DNA from: Cymodocea nodosa
Taxonomy: Eukaryota; Streptophyta; Magnoliopsida; Alismatales; Cymodoceaceae
NCBI GenBank assembly: GCA_036874045.1
Contig: CM072335.1
Span: 8,948,001-9,012,000 of the forward strand
Direction of reading: 5' to 3'
Length of the DNA stretch: 64,000 bases
Positions 10,466 to 64,000 of the stretch are shown here, piece after piece (the first letter of the stretch is position 1; every line of letters starts with the position of its first letter). A program made the translations under genes and the position numbers. The notes beneath the pieces were generated by a model, which was not told where the DNA came from, did not search any database, and saw only the letters and a list, made by a program, of their open reading frames with translations.

Positions 10466-10530
10466 CTATTCAATTCAATTCAATTCACTTCGACTCAATT
10501 CAATTCACTTCGACTCAATTCAATTCAATT
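10466..10530. repeat. Short tandem repeat next to the primer-binding site of A
   Basis: Repeats of the form CAATTCACTTCGACTCAATT run straight into the primer-binding site. Element BC has the shorter run CTCAATTCAATTCAATTC at the same place, which supports a shared origin of the two leaders. Confidence 0.75.
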
Positions 10531-12523: not shown

Positions 12524-12699
12524 CTAGCCATGACCAAATCATTAAGGGATTAGAAGCAAAGTTTGATAGGTTATCTACTTCATCTAGAGGTAGAGCATGG
12601 GGAGAATTACCTAGTAATACTATACCAAATCCCTACATGGCAGGTGTGCACTTGGCACAAGGAGAGACTTCAGGAACCAATCCTTCACCATCTACATGA
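12524..12699 (+). pseudogene. Gypsy H gag C-terminal end
   Basis: A frame running to a stop at 12699 encodes IIKGLEAKFDRLSTSS followed by GELPSNTIPNP, which resembles the Athila gag tail and the BC gag tail (GGLPIQAIPNL). No protease or RT follows. The rest of gag lies left of gypsy A. Confidence 0.55.
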
Positions 12700-31419: not shown

Positions 31420-33001
31420 TGTTGAGTATTTTTGTTTTGATGATGTGTGCTGAATGAAAATAATCATATTTTCTCAATCACTATTGCTTGTGAAAAGAAA
31501 TTAAAATCATCAATTAATATAGAAAAAGCTTACTGATATAAATACTTGTCTGTATTGGATCTGAAGTTAATAACTAGTCGTTTCGTTGCATTAATTTCTC
31601 ATTTAGCTAAACATTAAGTTAACGTGTGTTTTTATTGAAAAGCATGATATGTTTTAATGTTATATCTTCTGTATCATGAACAGTGCACGTTTAGACAACT
31701 CGTTAAGTTAGAGTTTTGTTTGTATAGAGGTCATGTAAGAACTCGTTAAGTTAGAAGCTTAAATGTTAAAATAGGTCACGTGATAACTCGTTAAGTTAGT
31801 GAGTAAAAGAAGCGACGAACTCGTTAAGTTAATGTTATACACGTGGTGAAACTATAAGTTACGAATGTTGTATTGTATCACGTGAGGTGCACATGTTTAA
31901 CTTGTTAAGTTAGCATAACTAAACGCGTTGAGTTGCTATATTGAACACTAAGGCAACACGTTAGGTTAGCGTTATAAACTTAAGTTGTTATTTTTGCACG
32001 TGGTAAAATTCTTATTATAAGAACATTTGTTTATTACTGGTTCGTTGAGTTATCATAACACAACGGAGATGGTTCGTTGAGATAGCATAACACCACAGAC
32101 TTAGTTCGTAGAGTTAGCTACAGTACTTGTCACGTGAAATAGCACATGGTGAACTCATTAAGTTAGAAACGTTAAGTTATATATATATACTTGTGTTACT
32201 CGTTTAGTTAACATTAAAGTAACGACTTCTTATTACACTGATAAAAAAATTTTGGACGAGAAAGTTTATTTTCAGGAAATTTTTCAGAGATCCAGGACTG
32301 ATGATTAAAGAAAATTTGAAATATAAACGTGGGTTAGAATGTGTGTGTTTCGATGAAGGAAAAAGAAAAGACGTGGAGAAGTGGAAAACTGGTAGTGGTT
32401 AAACATGAAGGATATGCATGAAATGAAGATATAGTATAAAAGGTATAGAATTCTTGTTGATCAATTTATCCTTGCACACAAAAAGAAAAATCTTTTCAAG
32501 GATCAAACCATCCCTGCACACCAAAAGAAAAATCTTTTTCAGGGATCAAAAACACCTCTTCGGGAAAAATCTCTCAAGTGGAAGAAAGTTCAGTGAAGCA
32601 TAAAAAGGTAAGATTTTCGTCACTGAAGATTTGAAGTATCAGAAGAAAGCAAATTCGGTGAAGCATGAAAAGACAAGATATTCGTCACTGAAGAATTGTT
32701 GAAGAAGAAAAAGAAGAAGAAGAAAGATCTCAAATAGGGAGAAAAGTTTTAAATTCCGCAAATTAGTTTTCTCTATTTGTAGTTATGAAATTGTTTAGAT
32801 GATACATGGTATCGAAATATAATTGCATCTACAATTTCTAAGGAGAATTGAATTGTATATTGTAATTGAAACCTTGAATAAAAATGATTTTATGAAAATA
32901 ATGTCTCGACTTGTTTTTAAGAATTAAAGTTTCAATTATATTTCATAAAATATTAAAAATACATAATTCACCCCCCTCTTGTGTAGCCATACGATCCTAC
33001 A
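31420..33001 (+). repeat. 5' LTR of copia F
   Basis: 1582 bases, TGTTGAGTATT to CGATCCTACA. Contains AACTCGTTAAGTTA repeats, CACGTG boxes, TATAAAAGG at 32435-32443 and an AATAAA near the R/U5 part. Confidence 0.92.
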
Positions 33002-33003
33002 AG

Positions 33004-40167: not shown

Positions 40168-42438
40168 ATGGTCTCCACATTCTACAAAGGTTGTGGCAGA
40201 GGAAAAGGCAAAAGCAGAAGAGATGCAAAAGGAAAAGAAATAGAGAATGATGAAGTTTCACGTACTTGGTTCAAGAAAATATTTCGAGTGGACAAAAGGT
40301 TAGAAGAACTTTATAGAGATTACTTCTTTTCTCAAGATATATTAGATGAAGTTAGACAAGAACTTCAACATACTGATGCAAGTATTACATACATGGGTAT
40401 TCGAAGTAAATATGATAGAGAATATAGAATGAAATGTGCTGAGATTGCATTTTTGGAACAATATGCAAAATATTTGGAAAAAGGTGTAGGTTCATCAAAT
40501 AGAACTCCTTAAACTCCTATAAACGGTACAAGACTACATGCATTTGAGGAAGAGCATGAATCAGCTATCCCTACTCCTTTATATTCAAAACAAGTAAAAT
40601 CAGATATTGCTGTAGGCAAAACAAAAGTTGACAGTTTTCGAAAGGTCGTTGCAATAGAAAGTGCCTTAGAAGAATTAAAGCAGAAAACTTTTAAGGAGCA
40701 ATTTGAAAAGAAAACAGCAATACTTGAAAAGGAGAAACAAAAATGTTATAGAAGAAGGAAAGTGAAAAAAATTATGTTTAAGGAAACAAAGTCTATTGAA
40801 AAAGGAAAATTGGATGAAAATTTATTTCCAAAGGACAATGTATGTCTAGACATTGTACCTTATTGTGCCTTTGATAAACTCATCAGTTCTGAACACATTG
40901 AAACTGATGAAGATAATGAGACTTTATTTTCCTTTGCTAGAAAACTTAAGAAGAAATCCAAGTCAAATATGAGCTCAAGTTTTTCTGTTAGTACAAGTCC
41001 TGATGATGCAGAAATTGACAAATCAGAGCATCAGGCACCTAACATTGAACAAGTTATTGCAGATATAATTGACAATGTTGAGGCAGTAACTAGTTCAAAG
41101 GCTGAATTGTCTGGAGTAGCAGATATTGAAAATGTTAAGACTCCAGAAGAGCTAAAAGTTAACCAGCCTTCTATAGAATCTATAGAAGCAGAGTTTGAGA
41201 ATTCACAGCATGAATCAATGGAAATATCTGTTGAACAAAATGAACAATTACAGACAGATACATCAGTTGTAGAATTTGTGGAAAAATTGTACTCTGAACA
41301 TTCTATAGAGACAGAACAGATGAATGTTGAGCATATTGACAATGTTCCTAACACTATTGAAGCTGAAGAATCAAGCTTACCTGAGCAGCTTCAAGATAAT
41401 ATTTTGGAAGAGGAACAACATGACATTCATTTTGAAGAAGAGGTTCCTGAAGATGAATTAAACTCTGAATCACGGCTTTAGGTATCTCCTTCTTTGTGTA
41501 CAATATTAAAAATTCAAGGTAATGCAATTCATTTTAGATCTGAAGAAGCATTGCAGAAATACAATAATCTAATTACATGTCAGATTCTACAAGCTCGTCC
41601 AATAAAATTCAGAAATTTGATGGAAATAAGAGATCTGTTTGAGTTTCAAGGCCTCATTAAATTATTGCTAGTAGGAACGAAATGGAAGCAATACACAGAG
41701 TTTTTTACAGCTTTTTATAGCAATCTGGACAAGAATGGAAATTTTCTGAAAACTCAAATAAATGAACAGGAGTTTATATTGTCTCTTGAGTTAATTTTTG
41801 AAGTTTTAGGATTAAAGAATGAAGGTGTTGTAGTTACCAACAGATTTGACATAATAAGACAACTGGAATGGAACATTCATTCTTTATCAAAAATTCCAGA
41901 TGTATATTCTGAAATGAGATTAATGGAAAATCTGAAAGGAGAGGCAAGGTTTATTGCAAATATATTGCAGGCAAATTTATTTCAGAGAGTTGGACACAAT
42001 TTGGAAGTCAGCAGAAGCTGTTTATATGCAACTTATGGCCTGCTGAATAAAATTCAAATAAATTGGTTTGATGTTTTTATGTCTCAACTATAGCATATGA
42101 GTTCAAAGTTATTTTATGGTGATGCTGTATGTAGAATCCTTGCAAGCCAATTGACTTTATCTGACTGGCCCTCTGAAACTAAATGCATGAGAGCATTTAG
42201 TGTCAAAGATTTGCAAAAATTCTAGGCCATGCATAAACCTCAACGACAACAACAACAACAACCTAATACAGACCATATACAACAACAACAACAACAAAGT
42301 TATTCAGTTCAAGCAGAATAGCAGACCTAGCTACCTCCTAACTTAGATGCAGTGCTTAACGACATCAGAAATGATATTAGGCATCTAGGAGATAAAATAT
42401 GTAATGCTATAAGTGATATACTTAGGAGGGGTCGATAA
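40168..42438 (+). pseudogene. Extra gene (env-position ORF) of copia F
   Basis: Starts MVSTFYKGCGRGKGKSRRD (ATG at 40168) and ends ILRRGR before a stop at 42436. N-terminal part: basic, RVDKRLEELYRDYFFSQDIL. Middle: acidic, glutamate-rich, with repeated EQ/ES runs. C-terminal half: RDLFEFQGLIKLL, AFYSNL, LELIFEVLGLKNEGV, RFIANILQANLFQRVGH and NKIQINWFDVF. The tail is glutamine-rich. The same gene is found in D and G. It resembles the 'putative plant transposon protein' domain often found in plant retroelements. No signal peptide or membrane segment is seen. Broken, with a few breaks. Confidence 0.7.
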
Positions 42439-42935: not shown

Positions 42936-44531
42936 TGTTGAGTATTTTTGTTTTGATGATGTGTGATGAATGAAAATAATCATATTTGCTCAATTACTAT
43001 TGCTTGTGAAAAGAAATTAAAATCATCAATTAATACAGAAAAGCTTTCTGATATAAATACTTGTCTGTATTGGATTTGAAGTTGATATCTAGTTGTTTCG
43101 TTGCATTAATTTCTCATTTAGCTAAACGTTAAGTTAACGTGTGTTTTTATTGAAAAGCATGATACGTTTTAATGTTATATCTTCTGTATCATGAACAGTG
43201 CACATTTAGACAACTCGTTAAGTTAGAGTTTTGTTTGTATAGAGGTCACGTGAGAACTCGTTAAGTTAGAGGCTTAAAGGTTAAAATAGGTCACGTGATA
43301 ACTCATTAAGTTAGTGAGTAAAAGAAGAGACGAACTCGTTAAGTTAGTGTTATACACGTGGTGAAATTATAAGTTACGAATGTTGTATTGTATCACGTGA
43401 GGTGCACATGTTTAACTCGTTAAGTTAACATAACTAAACGTGTTGAGTTGCTATATTGAACACTAAGGCAACGCGTTAGGTAGCGTTATAAACTTAAGTT
43501 GTTATTTTTGCACGTGGTAAAATTCTTATTATAAAAACATTTGTTTATTACTGGTTCGTTGAGTTATCATAACACAACGGAAATGGTTCGTTGAGTTATC
43601 CTAACACAACGGAGATGATTCGTTGAGATAGCATAACACCACAGACTTAGTTCGTTGAGTTAGCTACAGTACTTGTCACATGAAATGGCACATGAGGAAC
43701 TCGTTAAGTTATATATATACTTGTGTTACTCGTTTAGTTAACATTAAAGTAACAACTTCTTATTACACTGATGAAAAACTTTTGGACGAGAAAGTTTATT
43801 TTGCAGGAAATTTTTCAGAGATCCAAGACTGATGATTAAAGAAAATTCGAAATATAAACGTGGGTTAGAATGTGTGTGTTTCGATGAAGGAAAAAGAAAA
43901 GACGTGGAGAAGTGGAAAACTGGTAGTGGTTAAACGTGAAGGATATGCATGAAATGAAGATACAGTATAAAAGGCATAGAATTCTCGTTGATCAATTTAT
44001 CCTTGCACACAAAAAGAAAAATCTTTTCAAGGATCAAAACATCCTTACACACCAAAAGAAAAATCTTTTTCAGGGATCAAAAACACCTCTTCGTGAAAAT
44101 CTCTCAAGTGGAAGAAAGTTCAGTGAAGCATAAAAAGGTAAGATTTTCGTCACTGAAGATTTGAAGTATTAGAAGAAAGCAAATTCGGTGAAGCATGAAA
44201 GGACAAGATATTCATCACTTAAGAATTGCTGAAGAATAAAAAGAAGAAGAAGAAAGATCTCAAACAGGAAGAAAAGTTTTAAATTCCACAAATTTGTTTT
44301 CTCTATTTGTAGTTATGAAATTGTTTAGATGATACATGGTATCGAAATATAATTGCATCTACAATTTCTGAGGAGAATTGAATTGTATATTGTAATTGAA
44401 ACCTTGAATAAAAATGATTTTATGAAAACAATGTCTCGACTTCTTTTTGAGTTTTAAAGTTTCAATTATATTTCAAAAAATATTAAAAATACACAATTCA
44501 CCCCTCTCTTGTGTAGCCATACGATCCTACA
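42936..44531 (+). repeat. Second LTR of copia F
   Basis: 1596 bases. Five CACGTG boxes at 43247, 43292, 43355, 43394 and 43511; TATAAAAGG at 43966-43974; AATAAA at 44407. Confidence 0.92.
43966..43974 (+). promoter_or_regulatory. TATA box of the F-family LTR
   Basis: TATAAAAGG, kept in all F-family LTRs except J (8047, 32435, 43966, 45872). About 565 bases before the LTR end; AATAAA follows at 44407, consistent with a U3-R-U5 layout. Confidence 0.65.
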
Positions 44532-44856
44532 TTATCTTTTTGATTAATGACAAAAAGGGGGAGAAATATTATAAAAAGATGATTATGATCTTAATTGCAT
44601 ATATATATTATAAAAGGAGATGCTATTTAAATGGTTATTGTAATCTGACAGATGATAATTAGAAAACTGATACTTATATAATTATTGACATCTGAGAGGT
44701 AAAATTTACACAAACAATAGAAATAAGCTTAAGTGAACTTAAGTCAACAAACAAGTTTGTTGAATTAAAAGTTAACCCAACGAAGGTGCTTTGTTGAGTT
44801 AAACATATTTCATAATTGATTTAATATGGTTTTGTCATCATCAAAAAGGGGGAGAT
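44532..44856 (+). repeat. Second copy of the copia F 3' noncoding region between two LTRs
   Basis: 325 bases; from about 44568 it matches 42606-42935, including the final polypurine tract before 44857. The first 40 bases carry an extra AAAAAGGGGGAGAAAT tract not present in the first copy. Confidence 0.85.
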
Positions 44857-46438
44857 TGTTGAGTATTTTTGTTTTGATGATGTGTGCTGAATGAAAATAA
44901 TCATATTTGCTCAATTACTATTGCTTGTGAAAAGAAATTAAAATCATCAATTAATACAAAAAAAGCTTACTGATATAAATACTTGTCTGTGTTGGATCTG
45001 AAGTTAATATCTAGTTGTTTCGTTGCATTAATTTCTCATTTAGCTAAACGTTAAGTTAACGTGTGTTTTTATTGAAAAGCATGATATGTTTTAATGTTAT
45101 ATCTTCTGTATCATGAACAGTGCACGTTTAGACAACTCGTTAAGTTAGAGTTTTGTTTGTATAGAGGTCACGTGAGAACTCGTTAAGTTAGAGGCTTAAA
45201 GGTTAAAATAGGTCACGTGATAACTCATTAAGTTAGTGAGTAAAAGAAGAGACGAACTCGTTAAGTTAGTGTTATACACGTGGTGAAATTATAAGTTACG
45301 AATGTTGTATTGTATCACGTGAGGTGCACATGTTTAACTCGTTAAGTTAACATAACTAAACGTGTTGAGTTGCTATATTGAACACTAAGGCAACGCGTTA
45401 GGTTAGCGTTATAAACTTAAGTTGTTATTTTTGCACATGGTAAAATTCTTATTATAAAAACATTTGTTTATTACTGGTTCGTTGAGTTATCATAACACAA
45501 TGGAGATGGTTCGTTGAGATATCATAACACCACAGACTTAGTTCGTTGAGTTAGCTATAGTACTTGTCACATGAAATAGCACATGGTGAACTTGTTAAGT
45601 TAGAAACGTTAAGTTATATATATATACTTGTGTTACTCGTTTAGTTAACATTAAAGTAAAGACTTCTTATTACACTGATGAAAAATTTTTGGACGAGAAA
45701 GTTTAGTTTCAGGAAATTTTTCAGAGATCCAAGATTGATGATTAAAGAAAATTTGAAATATAAATGTGGGTTAGAACGTGTGTGTTTCGATGATGGAAAA
45801 AGAAAAGACGTGGAGAAGTGGAAAACTAGTAATGGTTAAACGTGAAGGATATGCATGAAATGAAGATACAGTATAAAAGGCAAAGAATTCTCGTTGATCA
45901 ATTTATCCTTGCACATAAAAAGAAAAATCTTTTCAACGATCAAACCATCCCTGCACACCAAAAGAAAAATCTTTTTCAAGGATCAAAAACACCTCTTCGG
46001 GAAAAATCTCTCAAGTGGAAGAAAGTTCGGTGAAGCATAAAAAGGTAAGATTTTCGTCACTGAAGATTTGAAGTATCAGAAGAAAGCAAATTCGGTGAAG
46101 CATGAAAAGACAAGATATTTGTCACTGAAGAATTGCTAAAGAAGAAAAAGAAGAAGAAGAAAGATCTCAAACAGGTAGAAAAGTTTTAAATTCCGCAAAT
46201 TAGTTTTCTCTGTTTGTAGTTATGAAATTGTTTAGATGATACATGGTATCGAAATATAATTGCATCTACAATTTCTGAGGAGAATTGAATTGTATATTGT
46301 AATTGAAACCTTGAATAAAAATGTTTTTATGAAAATAATGTCTCGACTTGTTTTTGAGAATTAAAGTTTCAATTATATTTCATAAAATATTAAAAATACA
46401 CAATTCACCCCACTCTTGTATAGCCATACGATCCTACA
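44857..46438 (+). repeat. Third LTR of copia F
   Basis: 1582 bases, same length as the first LTR; TATAAAAGG at 45872-45880. Followed by TSD ATTTA (46439-46443) and the rest of the E LTR. Confidence 0.92.
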
Positions 46439-46443
46439 ATTTA

Positions 46444-47428: not shown

Positions 47429-47649
47429 TTCTAGCCAAGGTTGTGGACGAGCTCTCCTCCAAGATTGGTGAGCTAGACGTCTTCCCCCTCATACTAGAAG
47501 ACCTCCTTTTCTCCACTCCAAGCCAACATACAAAAGGATCTCCATGGGTAAAAAATTGGTGGTATTGGAGGCATGTGTGTAGCATTGGAAGAGCTTGGGA
47601 TGTGATCTTCAAGATGAGGTAATTAGGAAGCATCAAAATTGAGAGGAAA
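47429..47649 (+). repeat. 3' LTR of gypsy H, second part
   Basis: Lies between the E and BC insertions. 47645-47649 (AAAGA) is the BC TSD. Confidence 0.7.
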
Positions 47650-49594
47650 GATGTTTGGGTTTTCCCAGCACTACACTACAAAAACTTGGATTTGTTACTT
47701 CTATTTTTTTACTTAGTTAATTTATCTTTATGCCTATTCTTTCTTTTAGAAGTAAACAAACAACCTTTAATACAATTTAGATATTAATTCCAATTTGTAC
47801 TTTAACTACAAGTGCACAGTGTCTATTGTATCAGTGTGCAAGTACAAGTCGATCCCACAGGGAATTGCTGATGAATTTAAGAAATGTTTGATTGTGAACA
47901 ATTCAAATTTATATTCAATAAGCACTCCATCGAGTTACGGTTAACTCAACGGACTAAGTTTGTTGAGTTATGGATAACACAACGGACTATCCTCGTGGAC
48001 TTAAGTTAACTCCACGAGCCTATCTCTTCTTTATAATACTGCTATTTACAGAGGAATTCGGCCAACCATTGGGCGATTCCACAGATTGTAAATAACATCA
48101 ATTAAGCTTTTTAATGCTAGTTAACATTGGATTTATCATTAAGCAATACTAACATTCAGATGATTCAAACAGTCACCATTAAAATCTTTAAGTTTTTTGT
48201 ATGAACCAATTTCAGTAAACTGTAAAATTAAAACTAACATAAAACAATCATAAAACTGATACAGATAACATTAATCACGATACAACACAAACAATACAAC
48301 ACTCAAATACAACATACAAACAAAGATAAATTGTTTTTGGTATTTTTGTTTTGATGTGAACATGAAAATGGGCGAAAGGTGAAATGTAAAGTAATCTCAC
48401 TTGATAGTAAATACTTCCGACACTACTTGCAACGCGATTACACTACTAAAAATTAAACCACTTACAATTCTGTCTCCTCTCCCTATAGAATCGCGAGTCC
48501 AGAATTGCAAGATGATCTCCTCTTCAGCATACAAGCATCAACCCGAAGCCAAGGCTAAAAGCTTTACGATCTCTTGAAATATGAGTCGGCGCTTGGTGAA
48601 AATGGCTTCCCTTCCCGCGACGCGATCACTCCTCACAATGGTTGTCAGGCACTGTGTTTGGCTCGGAATCGACCCGACATCAGGCAAGTATCCTCACAGA
48701 CCTCCGATGATTGGTGATTATGGTGGTGATACGATGGTTGGTGTGATACTTTGGAGAATCGCCGATACTTTTTGCAGAAAGCTCGATGCTCCTCCTCTGT
48801 ATACATTGTCGTCCATCGATCACACCTTCTTTTTTTTTTCTTCTTTTCTTTTATATTTCTTCAGTAGTAACTGCTTTTGCTTGAATGATCGGTTGGATTT
48901 CCTTTTTTCATATCAACAGCGATGATTTCTTCTCCATGCACGATTGAATTCCTGCATGATACGTGCAAACGTGGTTTTTGCTTCCAACTGTCTATTCCCG
49001 CAACCGCTACAGTGGTATTTTAGAAAATAACTATAAAATACATGCAATAAAGAAATAAGCCGCTAACCTAACGCGTTACCTTAGTATATATTCATATAAC
49101 TCAACGCGTACAGTTATGCTAACTTAACGAGTTATAACTTAAGTAAATCTACTAGATCTCGAGACGTGTCAGCAGCAGTTTAAAAATAACATTTCGGAGA
49201 GTTATAGGTCTAACTATCCGATGCTCAGATGCATTTTCGGATAGTTACAGCTAACTCACTGAAAATTCACTTAAGACATTCATTCTGGTTTCGACACGTG
49301 TACATCTGGAAATAATAAAATATTCTCTCTAAACATAACTGTTCGGCAATTTAAACATAACTATCCGAAATATCAGAAAATTCAAATACTTAAGAATTTC
49401 ACAGCCTACAACTTACCGACAGTTCATAAATGTACTAAATTAACATTAATTCCTCAAAATTAAGCAGATTCTTCAATTAAAGCATATAACAGTGCAATTA
49501 TAACATAATGGCTTAATTCTCATATGATAAGCTAAATATTATGCAATTAACCATCATTTAACCGTTAATAATATGCACTTTTTCATTCTAAACA
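47650..49594 (-). repeat. 3' LTR of gypsy BC
   Basis: 1945 bases, minus-strand ends TGTTTAGAATG and CCCAAACA. Same family as 10555-12523 and 55462-57418. Confidence 0.93.
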
Positions 49595-49608
49595 CTTCCC
49601 CCATACCT
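49595..49608 (-). other. Polypurine tract of gypsy BC
   Basis: On the minus strand TTTAGGTATGGGGGAAG ends at the LTR start. Preceded by GGGACTAGCAAAA as in gypsy H. Confidence 0.88.
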
Positions 49609-51573
49609 AAATTTTGCTAGTCCCTTAGCAAACTAAGATCTAATTAATTGGTCTTTCAAAAAGTGCTAGAATTAATTAAGCCTTTTGTTTTTTTTTCTTT
49701 TGTTTAGCATAAACATATATTCTGTATGTTTCAGTAATCAACCTGCAAAGATATTTAGAATATATGTAAATTACATACAAAGTATATCATCTTCATATAG
49801 GTGTTAATTATATTATCGTTTGTTCTTCTTTTCATCATCTGTTATCCTGAATTTTCCAATAAGTTTTCTAGAAGAAATTTCAACAACATACGAATCAAAG
49901 TATAATCCAATTCAATCTAATTAAGACAAGTAGAATAAAGAATTGTATTTCCACTAAACAACTTCAAAAGTCAATTCCAGATTCATATTTCAGCAATTCT
50001 AGATAACAGAAAATATACTCGATTCATAAGATATCTGTATTTCACAAAACACTTGTATCTTTTCAGAACAGTATATGTTTTTTTTTTTTTCTTTTTTTGT
50101 GTACTTTAAAAGTTAATTTGACAAGCTTGAATCATACAAGAGCTTTTTAATGTACCCATGTAACGAGCTTTCAGTCAACAATCCCAAATCTGATTAGGAT
50201 CTTAGGTTGCCAGATTTTCAAAGTCCTTTTTCAAGTCAACAATCCTTACATACCTATCTACTCAAGTACAAAAGGCTCGTGATCAAACAAGTCAATAAAC
50301 TCTCAAAGTTTTTTGTTTTTTTGTTTTTTTCAAAAAATAAATGCACACACAAAACAAAGCATTAATCACATACTGTATATGCACGTATTTCATTAATACA
50401 GATGTAGTAAAACACCAATCTCATATAATCCTACTTCTATCATTTACTAAAAATATGAATCCATAACAATAAGCTCATACTTTATCTGTAGTTTAATAAG
50501 ATCTACACATAAATCATTCTACAAGTTCAATCAGTCAAAGTAAATGTATCTTTCATCATATGTGTTTCATTTAATCTAGAATTCACATCTCAGCTCCTTC
50601 AGGACTTCAGATAATTTTCTGATTAAGCATTAAATATTCTGATTTCATTTTAAAATTGTAAAACTGTTAAACTCATGAAATTCAGAAAAATCATAAGATA
50701 CTATATCTAGATTTACATAAATAATAAATTCTATAGCATCTTCTATAGCCTTCTAAATATAACATTCAAGCAGTTTATAAAAATTTTATAGTCTTAATTA
50801 TCGGATAGTTACAACAAGTTCATAAAAATTTTCAATTTCCTCAAAACATTGCAGTACCATTTTAATTCCTTTAATTAACAAACTTACATGGCTGTTACTT
50901 TAATTACCTCCCCCCCATACCTACATTTTGCATTGTCCTCAATGTAAAATATTTGACAATAAGTACAGTAATTGTAGCAAGCATGAATAAAGTTTTGTTT
51001 GATTTAAAATTTAGGATAAGTAATTGGTTACATACCTTGTTCCATTTGTATCTCTTTCTGCATATTCTGATTTTTGATTCTGAAAAACTTTTCATTCCTA
51101 GATAATTACAGAATATAAAACAAAATAACATTTAACAGATATTAATAAATCAGTGTCTTGTGTGGAACCCAGGCTTCTATGCCTTTGGTGGCTCACAAGC
51201 AAGCTAGTTGGTTTCCTAGAACAGATACCAACAAATTGGATTGATATTTTGTTTTGTTTGTTTTTTTTTATAAAATGAACATGAAAAACTTCAAAATTCC
51301 TTTGTTTTTTAAAAATAAAATAAAAATAAATGCAGAATACACACGTTAAACACACAAAATCACACCTTAAGAACATGATTGAAAAGTAGAAACAAATGGA
51401 ATAAATGTATCAGTCCAAGCAAACTTTTTAGGCATAGTTCTTCTTGCTATTAATTCTGTTTTAATGCAGTTCTTGTTCCTTTTTAATTTGTAAACATGCA
51501 ATATATTATAAATTCTAAATACGAGTGTATTACCATTAATGATATGTAATGCAGAAAGGGATCCTTTTTGGTT
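49609..51573 (-). other. 3' noncoding region of gypsy BC with a second, internal polypurine tract
   Basis: No gene. On the minus strand CATTGAGGACAATGCAAAAT followed by GTAGGTATGGGGGGGAGG at about 50945-50909 is an Athila-style tract 1.3 kb before the terminal one. About 50590-49850 matches the spacer of copia F (38860-39530). T-rich runs at about 50078 and 50318. Confidence 0.75.
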
Positions 51574-52495
51574 CTAGGGTAATGTAGCAGTTTCTATTTC
51601 TACATCTATTTCAATATACTCCTCTTCCCACTTCCATTCATTCATGTCTTCCATAATCCATATTTGAAATTTCATCAGTTCATCCCACCATCTTATCAGA
51701 CATAAAGTAGAATCATCTTCTTCATTATACCACATTCCTATTTGAATTTCATTAAATTCTGCAGATGGTGGTTTAGTTATTTCACTCGGTACAAGTAAAA
51801 TTTCTATATAATCATCATAACTGTCTATGCTAACTATGTATAAATCAGATCCATATGCTAATGATATCTACATGACTAAATAGATATATCCATCAAGTAT
51901 GACATGTGTTTGGTTAATTAATGATTTCTGTCCTAGATATATTATAATGTTTTCATTCCAAGATCTGTTTAGAAAATTATACACACTTAAGCGTAAATCT
52001 TCACCCCAATTTCCTGTAGGTCTCCAACAATATAATTTTTCAGGAATTGCAGAATTTTTATCAGAAAATATTAAAGCTGACCCATAATTTTCAATTGGTG
52101 CTTCAAATATATTAGGTCTTCCTATATTCCATTCTTCTCCTGTTATAGGATTTCTTATCAAAATATCAGGTAATGATAAACTTGCATACCTTGGTCTAGT
52201 CTTGTATATGATTAATCCTTCATCTATCCCCATAATATGACTCATTCCTTCTAATGCATTGGGTGGAATTCCAGTAGTTTCTTCCATAGCCAGATATTCA
52301 TGGGTATTTGAACTACGATTAAATGACCTCCATATGAATCCATCTCTAATCTTAGTCATTTTTGCAGCTTGTAGTCCCTGAAAATATTTTTCTTCCATAC
52401 AGTCTTTAATTTCCTTTGATACACAATAGATCTTTAGCTAACAAGTTACTTAGTATTTCCCTTAGTGCATCCAATGGTAATTGCATTAATTCCAT
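51574..52495 (-). pseudogene. F-box gene carried by gypsy BC (copy 1)
   Basis: Starts MELMQLPLDALREILSN, an F-box opening, at 52495. The body aligns along its whole length with the open copy at 58888-59775: KYFQGLQAAKMTKIRDGF, MEETTGIPPNALEG, DILIRNPITGEEWNIGR, SALIFSDKNS and THVILDGYIYLV. The repeated blade-like pattern after the F-box recalls F-box-associated or KIB1-4 (DUF295) domains of plant F-box proteins; this is my judgement. It sits between gag and the polypurine tract, where env-like genes lie in other Athila elements. A TTTTTATTTTACAG stretch, like a 3' splice site, ends 10 bases before the ATG. About three breaks. Confidence 0.78.
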
Positions 52496-52683
52496 TTATC
52501 GATTCTGTAAAATAAAAACAAAAATTTAGTAGAGACAAAAATTAACATAACTACTGCACACCCTCGTGGAGTTAAGGCATAACTCAACGGACTAAGTTCG
52601 TTGAGTTAAAAATTAACTCTACGATACTATTAACTTAAAATAAAACATATATACATACAGATAGTTGCTTCAGATATGCTGCT

Positions 52684-54026
52684 TCATTCAGCTGCCCTTC
52701 TAGAAGAGGTATCAATTTCATTAACCGTTCTATTGACAAGATTAGGTATAGCTTGTATTGGCAATCCTCCAATAGGTCTAACTTCCATTGGTTCCTTCTG
52801 TCTAAGTGATATATTTCTATTCTGATTTTGATTTGCAGCATTTCCAAATATAAATTCTAGACGATTGTTTACTTGTTGGATTATCTTTTCTAATTTCTCT
52901 ATTCTAGCTCCTTGTTCAATTAATACTTCATAACTTATGTTCTTCTCATTTATATTTTCTCCTCCTTGGAAATTGTTGTTTCTCCAAGATAAATTCGGGT
53001 GATTTCTCCAATTAGGATTATAAGAATTTCCCAAGTTATCTCTCTAGTTTCTAGCATAAATAATATCTAAGTCATTTATGTTTGTATTCTTTTCTGCTAG
53101 CTTTTGATTTAATGATAACTCTTCATTTTCTTTGTTAATTCATTTAATTTCACCTCAAGCATAGTATTGGAATCTATTTCATGCATTCCTCTTGGTAATA
53201 ATTTTTTATCTGCAATAGCTTCAACCGAATTTTCCCATTGTGTAGTTCTTTTTGCAAAATTTTCTAAATATGCCCATGCTTCTTCACTACATAATTTTAA
53301 AAATCCATTTTGACAAGTAGATTCTAATAAAGATTTCGTTGAAACATCTATGCCTTCATAAATTATGCCTATTAATTGTGCTTTACTCATTGCATGATGT
53401 GGACATTGAGTCAGTAAATCTTTAAATCTTTCAAAATATTTCCAAAATGATGCACCCTATTTTTGGCTACACATTAATATTTCTTTCTTCTTTTTAATCG
53501 TTTGATGTGTTGGATAGTATTTTTCTAGAAAAACAGAGCAAAATTCAGTCCATGTAGAAATTGAATCAGGCGATAGAGTATATAACCATCTCTTAGCTGT
53601 ATCTTTTAAAGCAAAAGGGATATATCTAAGTTTAATAGCATCTATACTCATGTTCGGCATTCTCATCATTTGACAAACTTCGTTAAATTCTCTAAGGAAA
53701 TAATAGGCATCCTCTCTTTCTAATCCATGAAAATGTGGCAATTGACTAATATAATTAGATTTCAGCTCAAACCTATCTCCCTCAAAGTTTGGCAATCAAA
53801 TACATGAAGGTTCATCAATTAATTCAGGATACAAAATCTCTCCTAATGGTTTTTCTACTGGAGTAGCCATCTCTACATTCTCTTTTAAAGAAAGGTTAGC
53901 TACACCCCAAAGAATTTCGTTAAAGTTCAGTTCAGAAAATTTTTTAGTACTCATCTGCAATGAAAATTCCTGGGTAGGTGTTCTTACTAATCGTTTAGTG
54001 CTTAGAGAACGAGTCCATGTGCTCAT
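52684..54026 (-). pseudogene. gag: Gypsy BC gag with capsid core
   Basis: N-terminal part: TKKFSELNFNEILWGVANLS. Core (about 53460-53800): FELKSNYISQLPHFHGLERE, FLREFNEVCQMM, IKLRYIPFALKDTAKRWL and WTEFCSVFLEKYYP, the Retrotrans_gag domain of Athila type. Then GIDVSTKSLLESTCQNGFL and AWAYLENFAKRTTQWE near 53200-53390. The tail has YNPNWRNHPNLSW (about 53000) and GGLPIQAIPNLVN. A CX2CX4HX4C zinc knuckle, expected between the core and YNPNWRNHPN, is not seen; a coiled-coil-like stretch stands there. No protease follows. About three breaks. Confidence 0.85.
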
Positions 54027-54054
54027 AAATAAATAGCAGAAGATTAATTACATA

Positions 54055-54300
54055 CTAGTCTGAAGCTTTCCATTCTATAAATATTTGTTGTTGGATGAAG
54101 GTTGAATCAACTGCTTCTCCTTCCAATTCCTCCAACGCTTTCTCCTTTCTTTTAAAAGTGCTGGTAACTCGTAAATAACATTCTGTTTCATATATATACT
54201 GCGCATCCATAAAGTGAATAAATCTCGTTGCAAGAACGTGGCTTGCAACGTGCATCGTGGTTCCTATTTTTATGGGTACGTGTACCACTACTAATTTCAA
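54055..54300 (-). CDS. Small open frame of unknown role in the leader of gypsy BC
   Basis: 81 codons just before gag, starting MKLVVVHVPIKIGTTMHV and ending FIEWKASD. The first half is hydrophobic and the second charged (KRKEKALEELEGE). I recognise no family. It may be an upstream open frame or a leftover first exon; the gag start lies about 30 bases on. Whether it is translated is unknown. Confidence 0.3.
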   Translation of the reverse strand: MKLVVVHVPIKIGTTMHVASHVLATRFIHFMDAQYIYETECYLRVTSTFKRKEKALEELEGEAVDSTFIQQQIFIEWKASD

Positions 54301-55437
54301 ATTTTGGTACCGCTAAACCGACGAAGTTTCGTTTGTGGTTAAAAGAATAACCATTCTGCTTAATCCACGAACTAACCTTGTTGAGTTACTGATTACTCAA
54401 CAAAACACAGTCGGTTACTGTTGCTAACTCCATGGACTAACTTCGTTGAGTTACAGATAACTCAACGGAGTGACCTTATATTGTATTATTGACCTCGTGG
54501 AGTTACGGTTAACTTAACGGACTTACTTCGTTGAGTTAACACTTGGCAACTTCTAAGTTTCACTCTCGTAAGTTTTCTATTCTGTTTTTTTTTTTTTTTC
54601 TTTGTTTTTCATTCTACTAACTGTAATAAAGTTAAATCTATGTCATTAATGCCTCATTTTGATTAAAATACATTTAAATCTGAACATTATATAAAGATTT
54701 AACTTGCAAGTCATTTTACGTTATGCAAAATTTACATTTTACCTTATAACATGCAGAAATTTTTGAGCAGTTATCCTATCATTCAGCAAATTGTAAATCT
54801 GTTACATATTCATAAAGTTCCACAAATTACATAATATTTAATAAATTCCATTCATTTCACATCTAAATACGTATGAAAATTGCATCTGAAAAATTATATT
54901 CATTAATATGAATCAATTACATTACAAGTACACCATACAATTTCATACAATTTTACACAAGTAGACGAACAATACAATTTAATCTCTATGCCTAAATTCA
55001 TCTACTTCCTTCTGGAGTTTTTCTAATTTTAGGTTTTAGCTACAGTACTCCGTTGAGTTACAGTTAACTCAACAGAATAAGCTCGTTGACTAACTCAAGA
55101 CTTAATGGAGTATGCTCGTTGAGTTAAGCGTAACTCAACAGACTCCCCGTACAAGCAAATATAATAATAAAAATATTACAAAGAATAGTTTTTCTATTTT
55201 TTACCGGTTTAACCGATACTATGCTTCGGTCAGACCTAAATATTTTTTATTTTTTTATTTTTCTTTCGGTTGGACCGATACTATGTTTCGGTAAAACCAA
55301 TATTTTTTTCTGAAAATTAATATACAATTTTTTTTTTTATTAATGTTCCGATCATGCCGATGGATCTAGTCGGTTGAACCGCAACTATTTTTATGTTTTA
55401 TATATATTTTTAATGTTTAACTCAATTCAATTCAATT
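54301..55437 (-). other. Leader of gypsy BC with AGTTA/TAACT hairpins
   Basis: No gene. Contains clusters of CGTTGAGTTA and TAACTCAACG at 54355-54545 and 55035-55145, including the perfect hairpin 54444-54467 (10-base arms, loop CAGA). A second set of motifs around CGGTTNNACCGA occurs at 55200-55385 (CCGGTTTAACCGAT, CGGTTGGACCGAT, CGGTTGAACCG). Confidence 0.7.
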
Positions 55438-55454
55438 CCCCGGCAACGGCGCCA
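55438..55454 (-). other. tRNA-Asp primer-binding site of gypsy BC
   Basis: 17-base complement of the tRNA-Asp 3' end, 7 bases from the LTR; the spacer is the same as in gypsy A. Confidence 0.92.
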
Positions 55455-55461
55455 TAAAACT

Positions 55462-57418
55462 TGTTTGGGTTTTCCCAACACTACACTAGAAAAACTTTGA
55501 TTTGTTACTTCTATTTTTTTACTTAGTTAATTTATATTTATGCCTATTCTTTCTTTTAGAAGTAAATAAACAACCTTTAATGCAATTTAGATATTAATTC
55601 CAATTTGTACTTTAACTACAAGTGCATAGTGTCTATTGTATCAGTGTGTAAGTATAGGTCGATCCCACAGGGAATTGCTGACGAATTTAAGAAATGTTTG
55701 ATTGTGAACAATTCAAATTTATATTCAATAAGCACTCCATTGAGTTACAGTTAACTCAACGGACTAAGTTCGTTGAGTTATGGATAACTCAACGGACTAT
55801 CCTCGTGGACTTAAGTTAACTCCACGAGCCTATCTCTTCTTTATAATACTGCTATTTACAGAGGAATTCAGCCAACCATTGGGCGATTCCACAAATTGTA
55901 AATAACATCAATTAAGCTTTTTATTGCTAGTTAACATTGGATTTATCATTAAGCAATACTAACATTCAGATGATTCAAACAGTCACCATTAAAATCTTTA
56001 AGTTTTTTGTACGAACCAATTTCAGTAAACTGTAAAATTAAAACTAACATAAAACAATCATAAAACTGATACATATAACATTAATCACGATACAACACAA
56101 ACAATACAATACAAACAATACAACACTCAAATACAACATACAAACAAAGATAAATTGTTTTTGGTATTTTTCTTTTGATGTGAACATGAAAATGGGCGAA
56201 AGGTGAAATGTAAAGTAATCTCACTTGATAGTAAATACTTCCGACACTACTTGCAACGCGATTACACCATTGAAAATTAAACCACTTACAATTCTGTCTC
56301 CTCTCCCTATAGAATCGTGAGTCCAGAATTGCAAGATGATCTCCTCTTCAGCATACAGGCATCAACCCGAAGCCAAGGCTAAAAGCTTTACGATCTCTTG
56401 AAATATGAGTCGGCGCTTGGTGAAAATGGCTTCCCTTCCCGCGACGCGATCACTCCTCACAATGGTTGTCAAGCACTGTGTTTGGCTCGGAATCGACCCG
56501 ACATCAGGCAAGTATCCTCACAGACCTCCGATGATTGGTGATTATGGTGGTGATACGATGGTTGGTGTGATACTTCGGAGAATCGCCGATACTTTCTACA
56601 GAAAGCTCGGTGCTCCTCCTCTGTATACACTGCCGTCCATCGATCACACCTTCTTCTTTTTTTCTTCTTTTCTTTTATATTTCTTTAGCAGTAACTGCTT
56701 CTGCTTGAATGATCGATTGGATTTCCTTCCTTCAGATCAACGGCGATGATTTCTTCTCCATGTGCGATTGAATTCCTGCGTGATATGTGCAAACGTGGTT
56801 TTTGCTTCCAACTGTCTGTTCCTGCAACCGCTACAGTGGAATTTTAGAAAATAACTATAAAATACATGCAATAAAGAAATAAGCCGCTAACCTAACACGT
56901 TACCTTAGTATATATTCATGTAACTCAATGCGTACAGTTATGCTAACTTAACGAGTTATAACTTAAGTAAATCTACCAGATCTTGACATGTGTCAGCAGC
57001 AGTTTAAAAATAACATTTCGGAGAGTTACAAGTTTAACTATTCAATGCTCAGTTGCATTTTCGGATAGTTACAGCTAACTCACCGAAAATTCACTTAAGA
57101 CATTCATTCTGGTTTCGACACGTGTACATCTGGAAATAATAAAATATTCTCTCTAAACATAACTGTTCGGCAATTTAAACATAACTATCTGAAATATCAG
57201 AAAATTCGGATACTTAAGAATTTCACAACCTGCAACTTACCGACAGTTCATAAATGTACTAAATTAACATTAATTCCCCAAAATTAAGCAGATTCTTCAA
57301 TTAAAGCATATAACAGTGCAATTATAACATAATGACTTAATTCTCATATGATAAGCTAAATATTATGCAATTAACCATCATTTAACCGTTAATAATATGC
57401 ACTTTTTTATTCTAAACA
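55462..57418 (-). repeat. 5' LTR of gypsy BC
   Basis: 1957 bases. On the plus strand it holds a 114-codon open frame (56405-56749) antisense to the element, also open in the 3' LTR (48581-48925) and shorter in A (11449-11742). This part is clearly richer in G+C than the rest. Confidence 0.93.
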
Positions 57419-57423
57419 AAAGA

Positions 57424-58887: not shown

Positions 58888-59775
58888 TCATTCATTTAGG
58901 TCTTTCATAATCCATATTTGAAATTTCATCAATTCATCCCACCATCTTATCAAACATAAAGTAGGATCATCATATTCATTATACCACATTCCTAATTGAA
59001 TTTTATCATATTCTACAGATGGTGGTTCAACTATATTACTAGGTATAGGCAGTATTTCTATAAAGTCATCATCATAACTATCTATGCTTACTATGTATAA
59101 ATCAAATTTAAATGCAACTGATATATCTATGACTAAATATATATATCCATCAAGTATGACATGTATGTTGTTAATTAATGCTTTCTGTTCTAGATATATC
59201 ATAATATTTTTAGTCCAAGATCTATTCAGAAAATTATACACACTTAAGGATAAATCTTCATCCCAATTTTTAGTTAGTCTCCAATAATACAATTGTTTAG
59301 GAATGGTCGAATTTTTATCAAAAAATATTAAAGCTGACCCACAATTTTCAATTGGTACTTCAAATCTATTAGACCTTCCTATATTCCATTCTTTTCTAGT
59401 GATAGGATTTCTAATTAAAATATCGGGTAACAGAATTGCATACATTGGTTTGGTTCGGTAAATAATCAATCTCTCATCTATCCCCATAATATGATCTATT
59501 CCTTCTAATGTATTGGGTGGAATTCCAATAGTTTCTTCCATATTCAGATATTCATAGCTGATTGAACTACGATTAAATGACTTCCATAAAAATCCATCTC
59601 TAATATTAGTCATCTTTACAGCTTGTAGTCCATGAAAATATTTTTCTCTAACACATTCTTTAATTTCTTTTGACACACAACACAATCTGCACAGATCTTT
59701 AGTTGATAAGTTACTTAGTACTTCCCTTAGTGCATCTAGTGGTAATTTCATTAATTCCATTTGTTGTGATTCCAT
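58888..59775 (-). CDS. F-box protein carried by gypsy B2 (copy 2, open)
   Basis: 295 codons from the ATG at 59775 (MESQQMELMKLP); a longer frame upstream exists, but its first 40 residues lie in the spacer that is noncoding in BC. The F-box spans about residues 9-50: LPLDALREVLSNLSTKDL, then CRLCCVSKEIKECVREKY. The rest (IRDGFLWKSFNRSS, DILIRNPITRKEWNIGR, GSALIFFDKNSTIPKQ, YNFLNRSWTKN, VILDGYIYLVIDIS, WYNEYDDPTLCLIRWWDELM) looks like a repeat-based substrate domain of F-box-associated or DUF295 type. F-box proteins link targets to SCF ubiquitin ligases through SKP1. That the frame stayed open in an old, interrupted element may be chance or selection. Origin is probably a captured host gene. 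Confidence 0.75.
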   Translation of the reverse strand: MESQQMELMKLPLDALREVLSNLSTKDLCRLCCVSKEIKECVREKYFHGLQAVKMTNIRDGFLWKSFNRSSISYEYLNMEETIGIPPNTLEGIDHIMGIDERLIIYRTKPMYAILLPDILIRNPITRKEWNIGRSNRFEVPIENCGSALIFFDKNSTIPKQLYYWRLTKNWDEDLSLSVYNFLNRSWTKNIMIYLEQKALINNIHVILDGYIYLVIDISVAFKFDLYIVSIDSYDDDFIEILPIPSNIVEPPSVEYDKIQLGMWYNEYDDPTLCLIRWWDELMKFQIWIMKDLNE

Positions 59776-59974: not shown

Positions 59975-60970
59975 TCATTTAGTTTCCCTCCCAAAGAAGG
60001 TATCAATTTCATTAATAGTTCTATTGACAGGGTTAGGTACTACTTGCATTGGCAATCCTCTAGTAGGTCTAACTTCTATTGATTCCTTTTGTCTAGGGGG
60101 TATATTTCTATTCACATTTTGATTTTGAATGGCAACATTTCCAAATACATGATCTAGACGATTGTTTAATTGTTGAAGTATCTTTTCTAACTTCTCTATT
60201 CTAGATCTTTGTTCAATTAATACTTCATAACTTATATTTTTGTCATTTATATTTTCTCCTCTCTAGAAATTGTTATTTCTCCAAGAAAGATTTGAGTGAT
60301 TTCTCCAATTAGGGTTATAAGAATTTCCAAAGTTATCTTTTTGATTTCTAGCATAAATAATATCTAAGTCATTAATATTTGCATTCTTTTCTACTAGTTT
60401 TTTATTTAATGCTAACTCTTCAATTTTCTTTGTTAATTTAGTTAATTTAACTTCAAGCATAGTGCTTGAATCTATTTCATGCATTCCCCTTGGCAATATT
60501 CTTTTATCTGTAATAACTTCAACCGAATTTTCCCACTAAGCAGTTCTTTTTGTAAAGTTTTCTAACTATGACCATGCTTCTTCATTACACAATTTTAAAA
60601 ATCCATTCTGATAAGTGGATTCTTCAAAATTTTTAACCAAGCGATAGAGTACATTCTTCGAAAATTGAATCAGGTGATAGAGTATATAACCATCTCTTAG
60701 CTATGTCTTTTAAAGAAAAAGGAATATATCTAAGTTTAATAGCATCAATACTCATGTTCGGTATTTCATCATTTGACAAACTTCATTAAATTCTCTAAGG
60801 AAATAATAGGCATCTTCTCTTTTTAATCCATGAAAGTGTGGCAATTGACTAATATAATTAGATTTCAGTTCAAACCTATCTCCCTCAAAGTTTGGCAATC
60901 GAATACATGAAGGTTCATCAACTAATTTAGGATACAAAATTTCCCCTAATAGTTTTTCTACTAGAGTAGT
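59975..60970 (-). pseudogene. gag: Gypsy B2 gag region
   Basis: Matches the BC gag: PNFEGDRFELKSNYISQLPH near 60880, YYFLREFNEVCQMM, GMHEIDSSTMLEVKL near 60480, and YNPNWRNHSNLSWRNN near 60270. As in BC, a coiled-coil-like stretch (LVEKNANINDLDIIYARNQK) stands where a zinc knuckle would be. Broken, with several breaks; cut at its N-terminal side by K. Confidence 0.82.
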
Positions 60971-61147
60971 TGTAGGATTGTATGGCTACACAAGAGGGGG
61001 GTGAATTGTGTTTTTCAACTTTTTCAATTATAATTGAAACTTCAAAATTAAAAACAAGTCGAGACACTATTTTCATAAAATCATTTTTATTCAAGGTTTC
61101 AATTACAAAGTACAATTCAATTCTCCTTAGAAATTGTAGATGCAATT
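60971..61147 (-). repeat. F-family LTR piece K (minus strand)
   Basis: The last 177 bases of an F-family LTR in minus orientation: TGTAGGATTGTATGGC at 60971 is the reverse of the usual LTR end. It stops where copia J begins; the rest is expected beyond J. Confidence 0.8.
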
Positions 61148-62696
61148 TGTTGAGTATTTTGTTTTGATGATGTGTGCTAAATGAAAATAATCATATTTGC
61201 TCAATTACTGTTGCTTGTGAAAAGAAATTAAAATCATAGATTAATACAGAAAAAGTTTACTGATATAAATACTTGTCTGTATCGGATCTAAAATTATACT
61301 AAGTTAATAACTAGTCGTTTCATTGCATTAATTTCTCATTTAAGTAAACGTTAAGTTAACGTGTGTTTTTATTAAAAAGCATGATATATTTTAAAGTTAT
61401 ATTTTCTGTATCATATATAGTGCATGTTAAGACAACTTGTTAAGTTAGATTTTTGTTTGTATAGAGATCACGTGAGAACTCATTGAGTTAGAGGCTTAAA
61501 GGTTAAAATAGGTCACGTGAGAACTTGTTAAGTTAGTGAGTAAAAGTTTAGACAACTCGTTAAGTTAGTGTTATACACGTGGTGAAATTATAAGTTACAA
61601 ATGTTATATTGTATCATGTGAGGTGCACATGTTTAACTCGTTAAGTTAACATAATTAAACACGTTGAGTTGTTATATTGAACACTAAGGCAACGTGTTAG
61701 GTTAACGTTAGAAACTTAAGTTGTTATTTTTTGCACGTGGTAAAATTCTTATTATAAAAACATTTGTTTATTACTGGTTCGTTGAGTTATCGTAACACAA
61801 CGGAGATGGTTCGTTGAGTTAGCGTAACACCACGGAGATAGTTCTTTGAGTTAGCTACAGTACTTGTCACGTGAGTTGGCACATGAGAAACTCATTAAGT
61901 TAGAAATTTTAAGTTATATATATACTTGTGTTACTCGTTTAGTTAACATTAAAGTAACAACTTCTTATTACACCGATGAAAAATTTTTGGACGAGAAAGT
62001 TTATTTTGTAGGAAATTTTTCAGAGATCCAAGACTGATGATTAAAGAAATTTCGAAATGTAAACATGGGTCAAAACGTGTGTATTTCGATAAAGGAAAAA
62101 GAAAAGACGTGGAGAAGTGGAAAACTGGTAATGATTAAATGTGGAGGATATGCATGAAATGAAGATACAACATAAAAGGCAAAGAATTCTCGTTGATAAA
62201 ATTATCCCTACACACAAAATGAAAAATCTTTTCAAGGATCAAAAACACCTCTTCTGGGAAAAGCTCTCAAGTGGAAGAAAATTCAGTGAAGCATAAAAAG
62301 GTAAGATTTACGTCACTAAAGATTTGAAGTATCAGAAGAAAGCAAATTTAGTGAAGCAAAAAAAGACAAGATATTCATCACTAAAGAATTGCTGAAGAAG
62401 AAAGAAGAAGAAGAAGAAGAAAGATCTCAAACAAGGAGAAATATTTTAAATTCCGCAAATTAGTTTTCTTTGTTTGTAGTTATGAAATTGTTTAGATGAT
62501 ACATGGTATCGAGATATAATTGCATCTACAATTTCTAAGGAGAATTGAATTGTATATTGTAATTGAAACCTTGAATAAAAATGATTTTATGAAAACAATG
62601 TCTTGACTTGTTTTTGAGTTTTAAAGTTTCAATTATATTCGAAAATATTGAAAAACATAATTCACCCCCCCTCTTGTGTAGTCATACGATCCTACA
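61148..62696 (+). repeat. 5' LTR of copia J
   Basis: 1549 bases, TGTTGAGTATT to CGATCCTACA. Has the AGTTA repeats and several CACGTG boxes, but the TATA motif has drifted (CATAAAAGG). Confidence 0.9.
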
Positions 62697-62698
62697 AG

Positions 62699-62710: not shown

Positions 62711-62896
62711 TTTGTTAATAATCTTTGATATAAAATCGATACCAACTTATTTAATATCATTGCTTATTCTGCCTTCCTTGTTTTTAAACAGACATTAATA
62801 TCTGAGCATACGTTTAACTTTCTTGATTTAAGGCTCAAGTTGTTTTAAAGTTTTTAGACTGTTTAAAATCAAATAGGTTGAAAAATCTAAGGTAAG

Positions 62897-64000
62897 ATGG
62901 CTATTGGAAATGGTAATTTTTCTTTATATGAAGGCCAAAATCTTAATCGTCCTCTTTTATTTGATGGAATACATTTTGAATATTGGAAATATAGGATGAC
63001 TGTTTTTCTTCAAAGTACAGATCATAAGTTGTGGTTCATGATTTCAAAACCATATACTTCGTTATCTACCCCTTATAATACTTGGACAATTACTAAAAAA
63101 GAAAATGAAACTCTGAATGCTAAGGGCTTAAATATTTTATTTTGTACATTGAATATGAACAGTTTAGTAAAGTGTCGACATATAAATCTGCTTATAAGGT
63201 GTGACATGCATTAGAAGTTTCACATGAAGGTACTTCTCAAGTTAAAGAGACTAAAATAAACATGTTGATTCATAAGTATGAACTCTTTAAGATGCATGAA
63301 GACGAAAGTATTTCTGAGATGTTTTCTAGATTTCTTGATATCATTAACTCTTTAAAATGTTTAGGAAAAAATTTTGAACAGAAGTATTTGGTGAGGAAAA
63401 TTCTCAGATCCCTAAGTTCTACATGGTCTCAGAAAGTAACATCAATAGAGGAATCACGAGATTTAAATGTTTACACCATGAATGAACTTATAAGAAACTT
63501 AACAGCTTATGAAGTTCAATTAAATGAATCACTGAGTCACAACAAACCAAAAATGAAGAAAGAAATAGCCTTCAAAATTAATTTAGATTCTGATATATCT
63601 ATTGATTTTGACAAGGATTTAATTTTGTTGACTAGGAAATTCAAGAAAGCATGGAAAGCTAGGAAACAACAAAGGAACAGAAATGACAAACCCTCAACAT
63701 CAAAATCACTAAATGACAAGAATTCTTCATCTAGAAAGTATGCATATTACAACTGTAAGAAACTTGGACATCTTTCTCCAGATTGTCTTATAAGGAAAAA
63801 TGAAAAGCAAAGTAGGAAAAATCAGAAGAAGATAGCTCAGAAAACTTAGAAAAAGTTTTACAAGAAAAATGCTTTGAATGTCACTTGGGATGACACGTTT
63901 GAAGAGTTTGAATCTAAGGAATCATCATCAAAATCTTCACATTTAGAAGGAGAACAAGAGTTAGAAGACGTTGCTCATGTGTGCTTCATGGCAGATGAGT
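62897..64000 (+). pseudogene. gag: Copia J gag region, cut by window end
   Basis: Starts MAIGNGNFSLYEGQNLNRPL and follows the F gag: FEYWKYRMTVFLQSTDHKLW, YELFKMHEDESISEMFSRF, LVRKILRSLSS, a zinc-knuckle-like YYNCKKLGHLSPDC near 63750, the acidic serine stretch and AHVCFMADE at the window end. Broken, with a few breaks. Confidence 0.88.

Follow-up and report, generated by a model that had tools for sequence, protein, structure and literature searches.

The locus raises the question of what an F-box gene is doing inside an LTR retrotransposon. It lies in the window, the whole 64,000-nucleotide stretch of DNA analysed here (positions 8948001-9012000 of its contig in a 374.6-Mb assembly of Cymodocea nodosa, which was also the genome searched), and an earlier note on this DNA had read the gene as standing in the place of pol. 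Our best explanation is that a large Ty3-type, Athila-like family probably carries it as an accessory gene, expressed from RNA from which gag is spliced out, and that its product would redirect the SCF ubiquitin ligase of the host.

Element BC and its F-box gene

Two copies of the gene lie in the window, one in the element that we call BC and one in the diverged element B2.

47652-57418, minus strand: element BC, a derivative without pol and without a Transposase_32-like frame, with an LTR pair and a target-site duplication (TSD)
55462-57418, minus strand: 5' LTR of BC
55438-55454, minus strand: primer binding site of BC, tRNA-Asp type
52687-54026, minus strand: gag of BC (PF03732), with stops and a frameshift
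51370-52495, minus strand: F-box gene of BC, damaged
49595-49607, minus strand: polypurine tract of BC, adjoining the 3' LTR
47652-49594, minus strand: 3' LTR of BC
59975-60969, minus strand: gag remnant of B2, broken at 60969/60970 by a Copia-type insertion
58888-59775, minus strand: F-box gene of B2, a 295-residue frame that ends early, with homology continuing to about 58730

The LTRs of BC are 95.7% identical in the window self-comparison (K2P distance 0.038 over 1943 sites), and the TSD AAAGA is found at 47647-47651 and 57419-57423 on the plus strand (TCTTT when read on the minus strand). A 5-base TSD beside the LTRs, as in Ty3/gypsy elements, also flanks the C13 element described below (CCGAC). 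The LTRs, TSD, tRNA-Asp primer site and polypurine tract previously described for BC were thus all found where they had been placed, as was gag upstream of the F-box gene, by its PF03732 match; the tRNA-Asp assignment uses as its model the Athila-group primer site given in the accessible part of PMC1142308. No integrase or Transposase_32-like match was found within BC, which is a complete LTR element with gag and without pol, i.e. of the non-autonomous type; this is true of BC and not of its family. We infer that BC has probably lost both blocks, because the commoner Athila make-up has them. Behind the F-box gene, the stretch 50960-50900 may resemble the sequence found after pol in Athila elements. 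Copies of a short motif around AACTCAACGGA/TTGAGTTA, which is self-complementary, are present at 47921-48005, 55044-55128, 55731-55815 and near 52550-52610; these sites belong to the LTRs, to the 5' non-coding stretch and to the gap between gag and the F-box gene.

The 295-residue B2 frame matches the Pfam F-box profile with an E value of 6.2e-11 (42.2 bits; cut-off 20.5), and the F-box is above the Pfam cut-off in P0001, L017, L008, L023 and L056. The match is N-terminal, covering residues 4-41 of the 379-residue frame of L056. FBA_1 reached E values of 0.013-0.015, below the cut-off, in two frames and gave no match in the other frames scanned. The gene does occupy the same place in BC and B2, as had been noted, but the lengths given for it (295 and 307 codons) are too short and the damage to both window copies had gone unmentioned: the BC gene has inner stops and, inside the F-box, an 11-base deletion (repeat spacing 7265 versus 7254), the B2 frame stops early, and homology runs beyond both quoted ends. 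Full length is 379-388 residues, uninterrupted in ten of 12 BC-like copies, which were chosen for long frames and hence are not a random sample. AlphaFold models were uninformative (mean pLDDT 33.6 and 36.5). No relative of the F-box gene in other species was found in protein, viral-contig or solved-structure searches: 5.8 billion protein sequences gave 402 candidates for P0001 and 7992 for A3 with no match at E values of 0.01 and 0.1, viral contigs gave five pattern matches with none confirmed, and the solved-structure sequences gave no match.

Within the genome, the B2 protein was matched at 82-100% identity over nearly the full 295 residues by all of the best 133 of 6351 candidates, and a 185-residue piece of the BC gene at 92-100% over nearly its whole length by all of the best 150 of 5363. 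Inner stops are present in 112 and absent in 21 of the 133 listed B2-like matches; by our own count, 89 of the 150 listed BC-like matches have none. At 27 of 30 loci from the B2 search gag lies just upstream of the F-box gene, with all three gag query pieces present at 25. The earlier note's proposal that the F-box gene is fixed in a family, and was not captured just once, is borne out: in this large LTR-retrotransposon family there are many copies, in the same place, and every listed match is nearly full-length. Protein identity to L056 is 54-60% for L068, L069 and L070 and 69% for L071, and because the subfamilies differ so far the family has, on this evidence, carried the gene for long. A Pfam F-box search of the genome gave 4219 candidates; eight were sampled from the best 150 by score and frame length (hence not at random), and seven of these are the element gene. 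The eighth, L065, is an unrelated host gene, and the closest host F-box gene, as a source, was not found in this sample. As element copies dominate it, counts of the F-box gene family in such genomes may be inflated.

Gene order in complete relatives

Pol-bearing sequences elsewhere in the window show how BC relates to its family.

10555-12525, minus strand: LTR of element A, of the BC LTR family (89% to the BC LTRs), with a primer site at 10547
8612-10480, minus strand: first part of the element A pol frame, with a CCHC-like motif and a protease-side part, directly after the primer site
291-4766, minus strand: pol of a second Athila-like family, with a primer site at 4882, another LTR and no gag ahead

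The tRNA-Asp primer sites of the window are at 55454, 10547 and 4882. In element A no gag was found ahead of pol, which begins within ∼75 bases of the primer site. The pol frame (8612-10480) gave no Pfam match above the cut-off and is 95.8-96.5% identical to L058 and L059. Both of these copies have a BC-type LTR and a primer site (tRNA-Asp type in L059, a diverged form in L058), followed after about 55-75 bases, with no gag between, by a pol frame of ∼1575 residues with one inner stop each. By Pfam, RT and RNase H are matched in each of the two copies and integrase in L058; RT and RNase H precede integrase in L058 and in the window at 294-3134. Neither copy gave a gag or F-box match below an E value of 0.6. 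Just behind pol, positions 44-429 of the BC 5' non-coding stretch recur (L058/L059). L060 adjoins L058 and continues with a Transposase_32-like frame and then BC-like sequence: non-coding positions 434-1507 (94% identity to BC), gag (95.5%), the F-box gene (95%), the 3' non-coding part (94%) and finally the LTR. The resulting C13 element (L058 + L060) has the TSD CCGAC on both sides; for its LTR halves the identity is 96.0% and 93.4%. L062 and L063 have the identical order from behind pol through the F-box gene, so that gag stands behind pol in L060, L062 and L063; the Transposase_32 match in L062 (PF20167; E = 3.4e-4, 21 bits) is under the 45-bit cut-off.

The arrangement also holds across the genome. 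When 150 listed pol matches (the best of 5894 candidates in a search with element A pol) were compared with the 150 listed BC-like F-box matches, 24 pairs lay within 15 kb of each other, with the F-box gene downstream on the same strand in 23, upstream on the same strand in none and on the opposite strand in one. Random shifts (1000) gave a mean of 0.68 and a maximum of four collinear pairs, and 23 of the 24 observed fall, collinear, in two distance clusters. The collinear pairs, the C13 element and L062/L063 therefore place pol first, then the Transposase_32-like frame, gag and the F-box gene, and complete members consist of an LTR, primer site, pol (protease, RT, RNase H and integrase), Transposase_32-like frame, non-coding stretch, gag, F-box gene, 3' non-coding part and LTR. 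The description of an F-box gene in place of pol accordingly fits BC but fails for the family, in which elements with the same LTR carry pol upstream. Two simple schemes are ruled out by these elements: the F-box gene as a family-wide substitute for pol, as complete relatives carry pol, gag and the F-box gene, and a two-element system of separate gag-only and pol-only members, as all three genes lie in one element.

The accessible text of PMC6317226 gives the usual Ty3/gypsy order as GAG-PROT-RT-RH-INT and removes elements of unexpected order as likely mispredictions. In element A, L058 and L059 pol, not gag, follows the primer site; because the GAG-first order does not hold, we call the family Athila-like and Ty3-type and do not file it as a standard Athila member. 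An order with pol before gag breaks a rule by which LTR elements are classified and unusual ones thrown out, and similar elements may therefore have been filtered out elsewhere.

In one copy of the second family, L061, which lies outside the window, to its left, pol is followed by a 312-residue gag frame (PF03732; E = 7.5e-20). There (reverse coordinates 317-1252 and 1232-6401) BC-like non-coding sequence, gag and F-box gene come directly after the second-family gag; with pol, two gag genes and an F-box gene in a row, L061 may represent either a mixed element or nesting. Beside the primer site of the second-family pol in the window is a 1.16-kb near-perfect palindrome (4889-6051; 97%), which looks as if an LTR were followed by its inverted copy. 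Further Transposase_32-like frames at 6278-7213, 15320-15967 and 41248-41988 have 28-33% identity to the element's own.

Splicing of the F-box RNA

The features that bear on expression of the gene lie immediately around gag.

54191-54198, minus strand: TATATATA, located ahead of exon 1, a putative internal promoter element
54056-54073, minus strand: end of exon 1 with an ATG (ATGGAAAGCTTCAGACTA); the splice donor GTATGT follows at 54055
52505-54055, minus strand: intron of the F-box RNA (GT at 54055, AG at 52505; 1551 bases), with the whole of gag inside

Retrocopies show that RNA of the element is spliced: the donor lies immediately ahead of gag and the acceptor immediately ahead of the F-box gene, with gag as the intron. 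In L022 the 5' non-coding stretch is joined to the start of the F-box gene exactly at ACTA|GTATGT (as in BC) and ACAG|AATC (as in relatives), and gag is gone; the same copy was also fetched as L033 and L036, and L033 keeps integrase and the Transposase_32-like frame upstream of the joint. The exact joint (≤3 mismatches) occurs at 244 places genome-wide, 37 B2-like and 207 BC-like, while reversed joint patterns, used as a control, gave no matches. Of 100 listed BC-like joints (of the 207), 15 have a listed pol match within 15 kb, and in 14 of these pairs the joint is downstream of pol on the same strand. L048, L049 and L052, three of the 12 BC-like copies chosen for their long frames, also have spliced joints, and in these the ATG of exon 1 is in frame with the F-box. 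On the F-box tree the spliced copies are scattered, with eight parsimony changes for nine tips (FastTree, branch support not used); these figures refer to B2-like copies only, L048, L049 and L052 being unlabelled as spliced in the tree. The abundance of such retrocopies suggests that splice products of these elements are often packaged and inserted.

The gag ATG (54026) lies within the intron, which places the start of gag in the unspliced RNA. The possibility that splicing is needed for gag was ruled out by this position, and the acceptor that it supposes is not kept in B2-like copies. With a donor before gag and an acceptor before the 3' gene, the retrocopies have the layout of a spliced 3' gene of retroviral type. 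The stretch TATAAATA/TATATATA is found at the matching place in the fetched copies.

Constraint on the F-box gene and its possible role

Compared by matched pieces, five long copies are 84-86% identical to BC in the F-box gene and 88-91% in gag (four copies), compared with 76-82% in the 3' non-coding part and 75-84% in the LTR. Gag stops common to at least five copies are all of the C-to-T or G-to-A kind, and because this decay is heavy we counted transversions alone, excluding codons with stops or gaps; of L036-L045, the tree and dN/dS set leaves out L036 (the repeat of L022) and L043 (too short). Transversion dN/dS is 0.43 for 41 F-box copies (shifted frames 0.98 and 1.12) and 0.38 for the 28 gag-bearing copies that passed the length limit (shifted frames 1.10 and 0.63). 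F-box variants in at least three copies give 0.22 versus 0.62 for singletons (Fisher p = 0.009); for variants present in exactly two copies the ratio is 1.00, and a singleton-to-shared contrast is found in one shifted frame as well (p = 0.04). Between subfamilies the value is 0.45 (shifted 0.92 and 1.40), whereas within BC-like copies it is 0.79 (shifted 0.88 and 1.53), and for near-fixed subfamily differences it is 0.68, no better than the 0.71 of one shifted frame (1.03 in the other). By all substitutions dN/dS is 0.38-0.50 in eight of nine subfamily pairs and 0.89 in the ninth (L056/L067), higher than in both shifted frames. The first 45 F-box codons give 6.8 by transversions, synonymous ones being nearly absent, and 0.27 by all changes. 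Together these values point to real but moderate constraint on the F-box gene, with some of the tests weak.

The gene could be a passenger, captured once from the host and copied along unused, as are most transduced genes in LTR elements. The moderate dN/dS (0.79 within BC-like copies), the near-fixed differences that do no better than one shifted frame and the inner stops in most listed B2-like matches would fit this, as would the pattern in the accessible part of PMC7264820, where genes transduced by LTR elements are usually present in one or few copies. However, the constraint is specific to the true frame, the F-box gene is more alike among copies than the adjoining non-coding parts, subfamilies at 54-60% protein identity keep it in the same place, more than half of the listed BC-like matches have no inner stop and the splice sites are kept; we therefore regard a passenger as unlikely. 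A different possibility, which we hold doubtful though more credible than a passenger, is that the protein does have a use, but against proteins of the element itself (e.g. by limiting Gag or Pol) or through occupation of SKP1, and not against a host target; production of Gag and the F-box protein from one RNA by a splicing choice would suit a switch between them.

The gene order and the joints have alternative origins too. In a window full of nested insertions, pol of one element might simply stand beside gag and the F-box gene of another by nesting or in tandem; unexpected domain order is treated as a likely misprediction in the accessible text of PMC6317226, and L061, with its two gag genes, does hold a mixed arrangement. 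We consider such an artefact very unlikely in view of an element flanked by a TSD, with two LTRs and only short LTR motif repeats between pol and gag, of the same order in L062 and L063 and of the collinear pairs in their two distance clusters. It is more improbable still, to the point of being hardly credible, that the gag-less joints are DNA deletions spread by copying and not products of splicing. Many of the 207 BC-like joints are identical, and part of them may descend from few events, but the joint falls exactly at GTATGT and ACAG in both subfamilies, whose joint sequences differ, and the spliced B2-like copies are scattered on the tree (again without use of branch support).

We return to the accessory gene, which we prefer. 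F-box domains typically serve SCF adaptors, and for this reason the element protein may well act as one. Unspliced RNA would give Gag and spliced RNA the F-box protein, in the manner of retroviral gag and env; as pol lies in front, this RNA is likely to start internally, perhaps at a promoter near TATATATA (54198-54191). The 379-residue protein would bind SKP1 through its N-terminal F-box and present a target with its weakly FBA-like C-terminal part, so that the element would turn the host SCF ubiquitin ligase to its own purposes. Host factors that keep the element in check would be the likeliest targets; that silencing factors are among them is a guess. A fuller scheme, which we put forward only tentatively, is that gag has moved behind pol as the intron of the F-box gene, that the choice of splicing yields either Gag or an SCF adaptor that removes host factors, and that pol-less copies such as BC and gag-less copies share proteins as a multi-component system. 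If the accessory-gene reading is right, this is a plant retrotransposon that encodes a ubiquitin-ligase adaptor of its own, one on which selection acts in many copies, and what transposons degrade in plants becomes a testable question.

The polerovirus P0 and nanovirus Clink proteins are viral F-box proteins. The baculovirus protein Lef-7, as far as the accessible part of its source goes, is similarly an F-box protein carried by a viral genome; the present protein has no known sequence relation to P0, Clink or Lef-7, and unlike them it is encoded by a retrotransposon. The Athila group (Athila4, Calypso, Diaspora and BAGY-2) resembles the present family in its tRNA-Asp primer site, a pol with RT, RNase H and integrase and a gag with Retrotrans_gag; the differences are the extra F-box gene and pol before gag, compared with GAG-PROT-RT-RH-INT (accessible text of PMC6317226). 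A Transposase_32-like extra frame is described for a sunflower Athila in the portion of PMC11728184 available, and the frame of the present family may correspond to it. Barley BAGY-2 likewise expresses a 3' gene, env-like, from spliced RNA (PMC7264820, in its accessible part), but here an F-box protein is the product, and gag-pol is replaced by gag as the content of the intron. Gypsy elements of the orchid Phalaenopsis keep a host-type extra gene through the family, that for an AlkB-type RNA demethylase (PMC9289625, accessible part); the gene is a different one and the usual order is not at issue there, whereas copy-wide selection and spliced retrocopies are seen here. The term 'F-box' is absent from the accessible portions of PMC7264820, PMC8775202, PMC9289625 and PMC11728184, and neither an F-box gene nor a pol-before-gag order in LTR elements was found in the literature searched, in which subscription papers are thinly covered. 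We rate an LTR retrotransposon with an unusual gene order and an unusual accessory gene as what is new here.

Elsewhere in the window there are Copia-type LTR copies at 7257-8609, 31420-33002, 42936-46440 and 60970-62697, one insertion splitting B2 in gag, and a Copia-like gag continues at 62891-64000.
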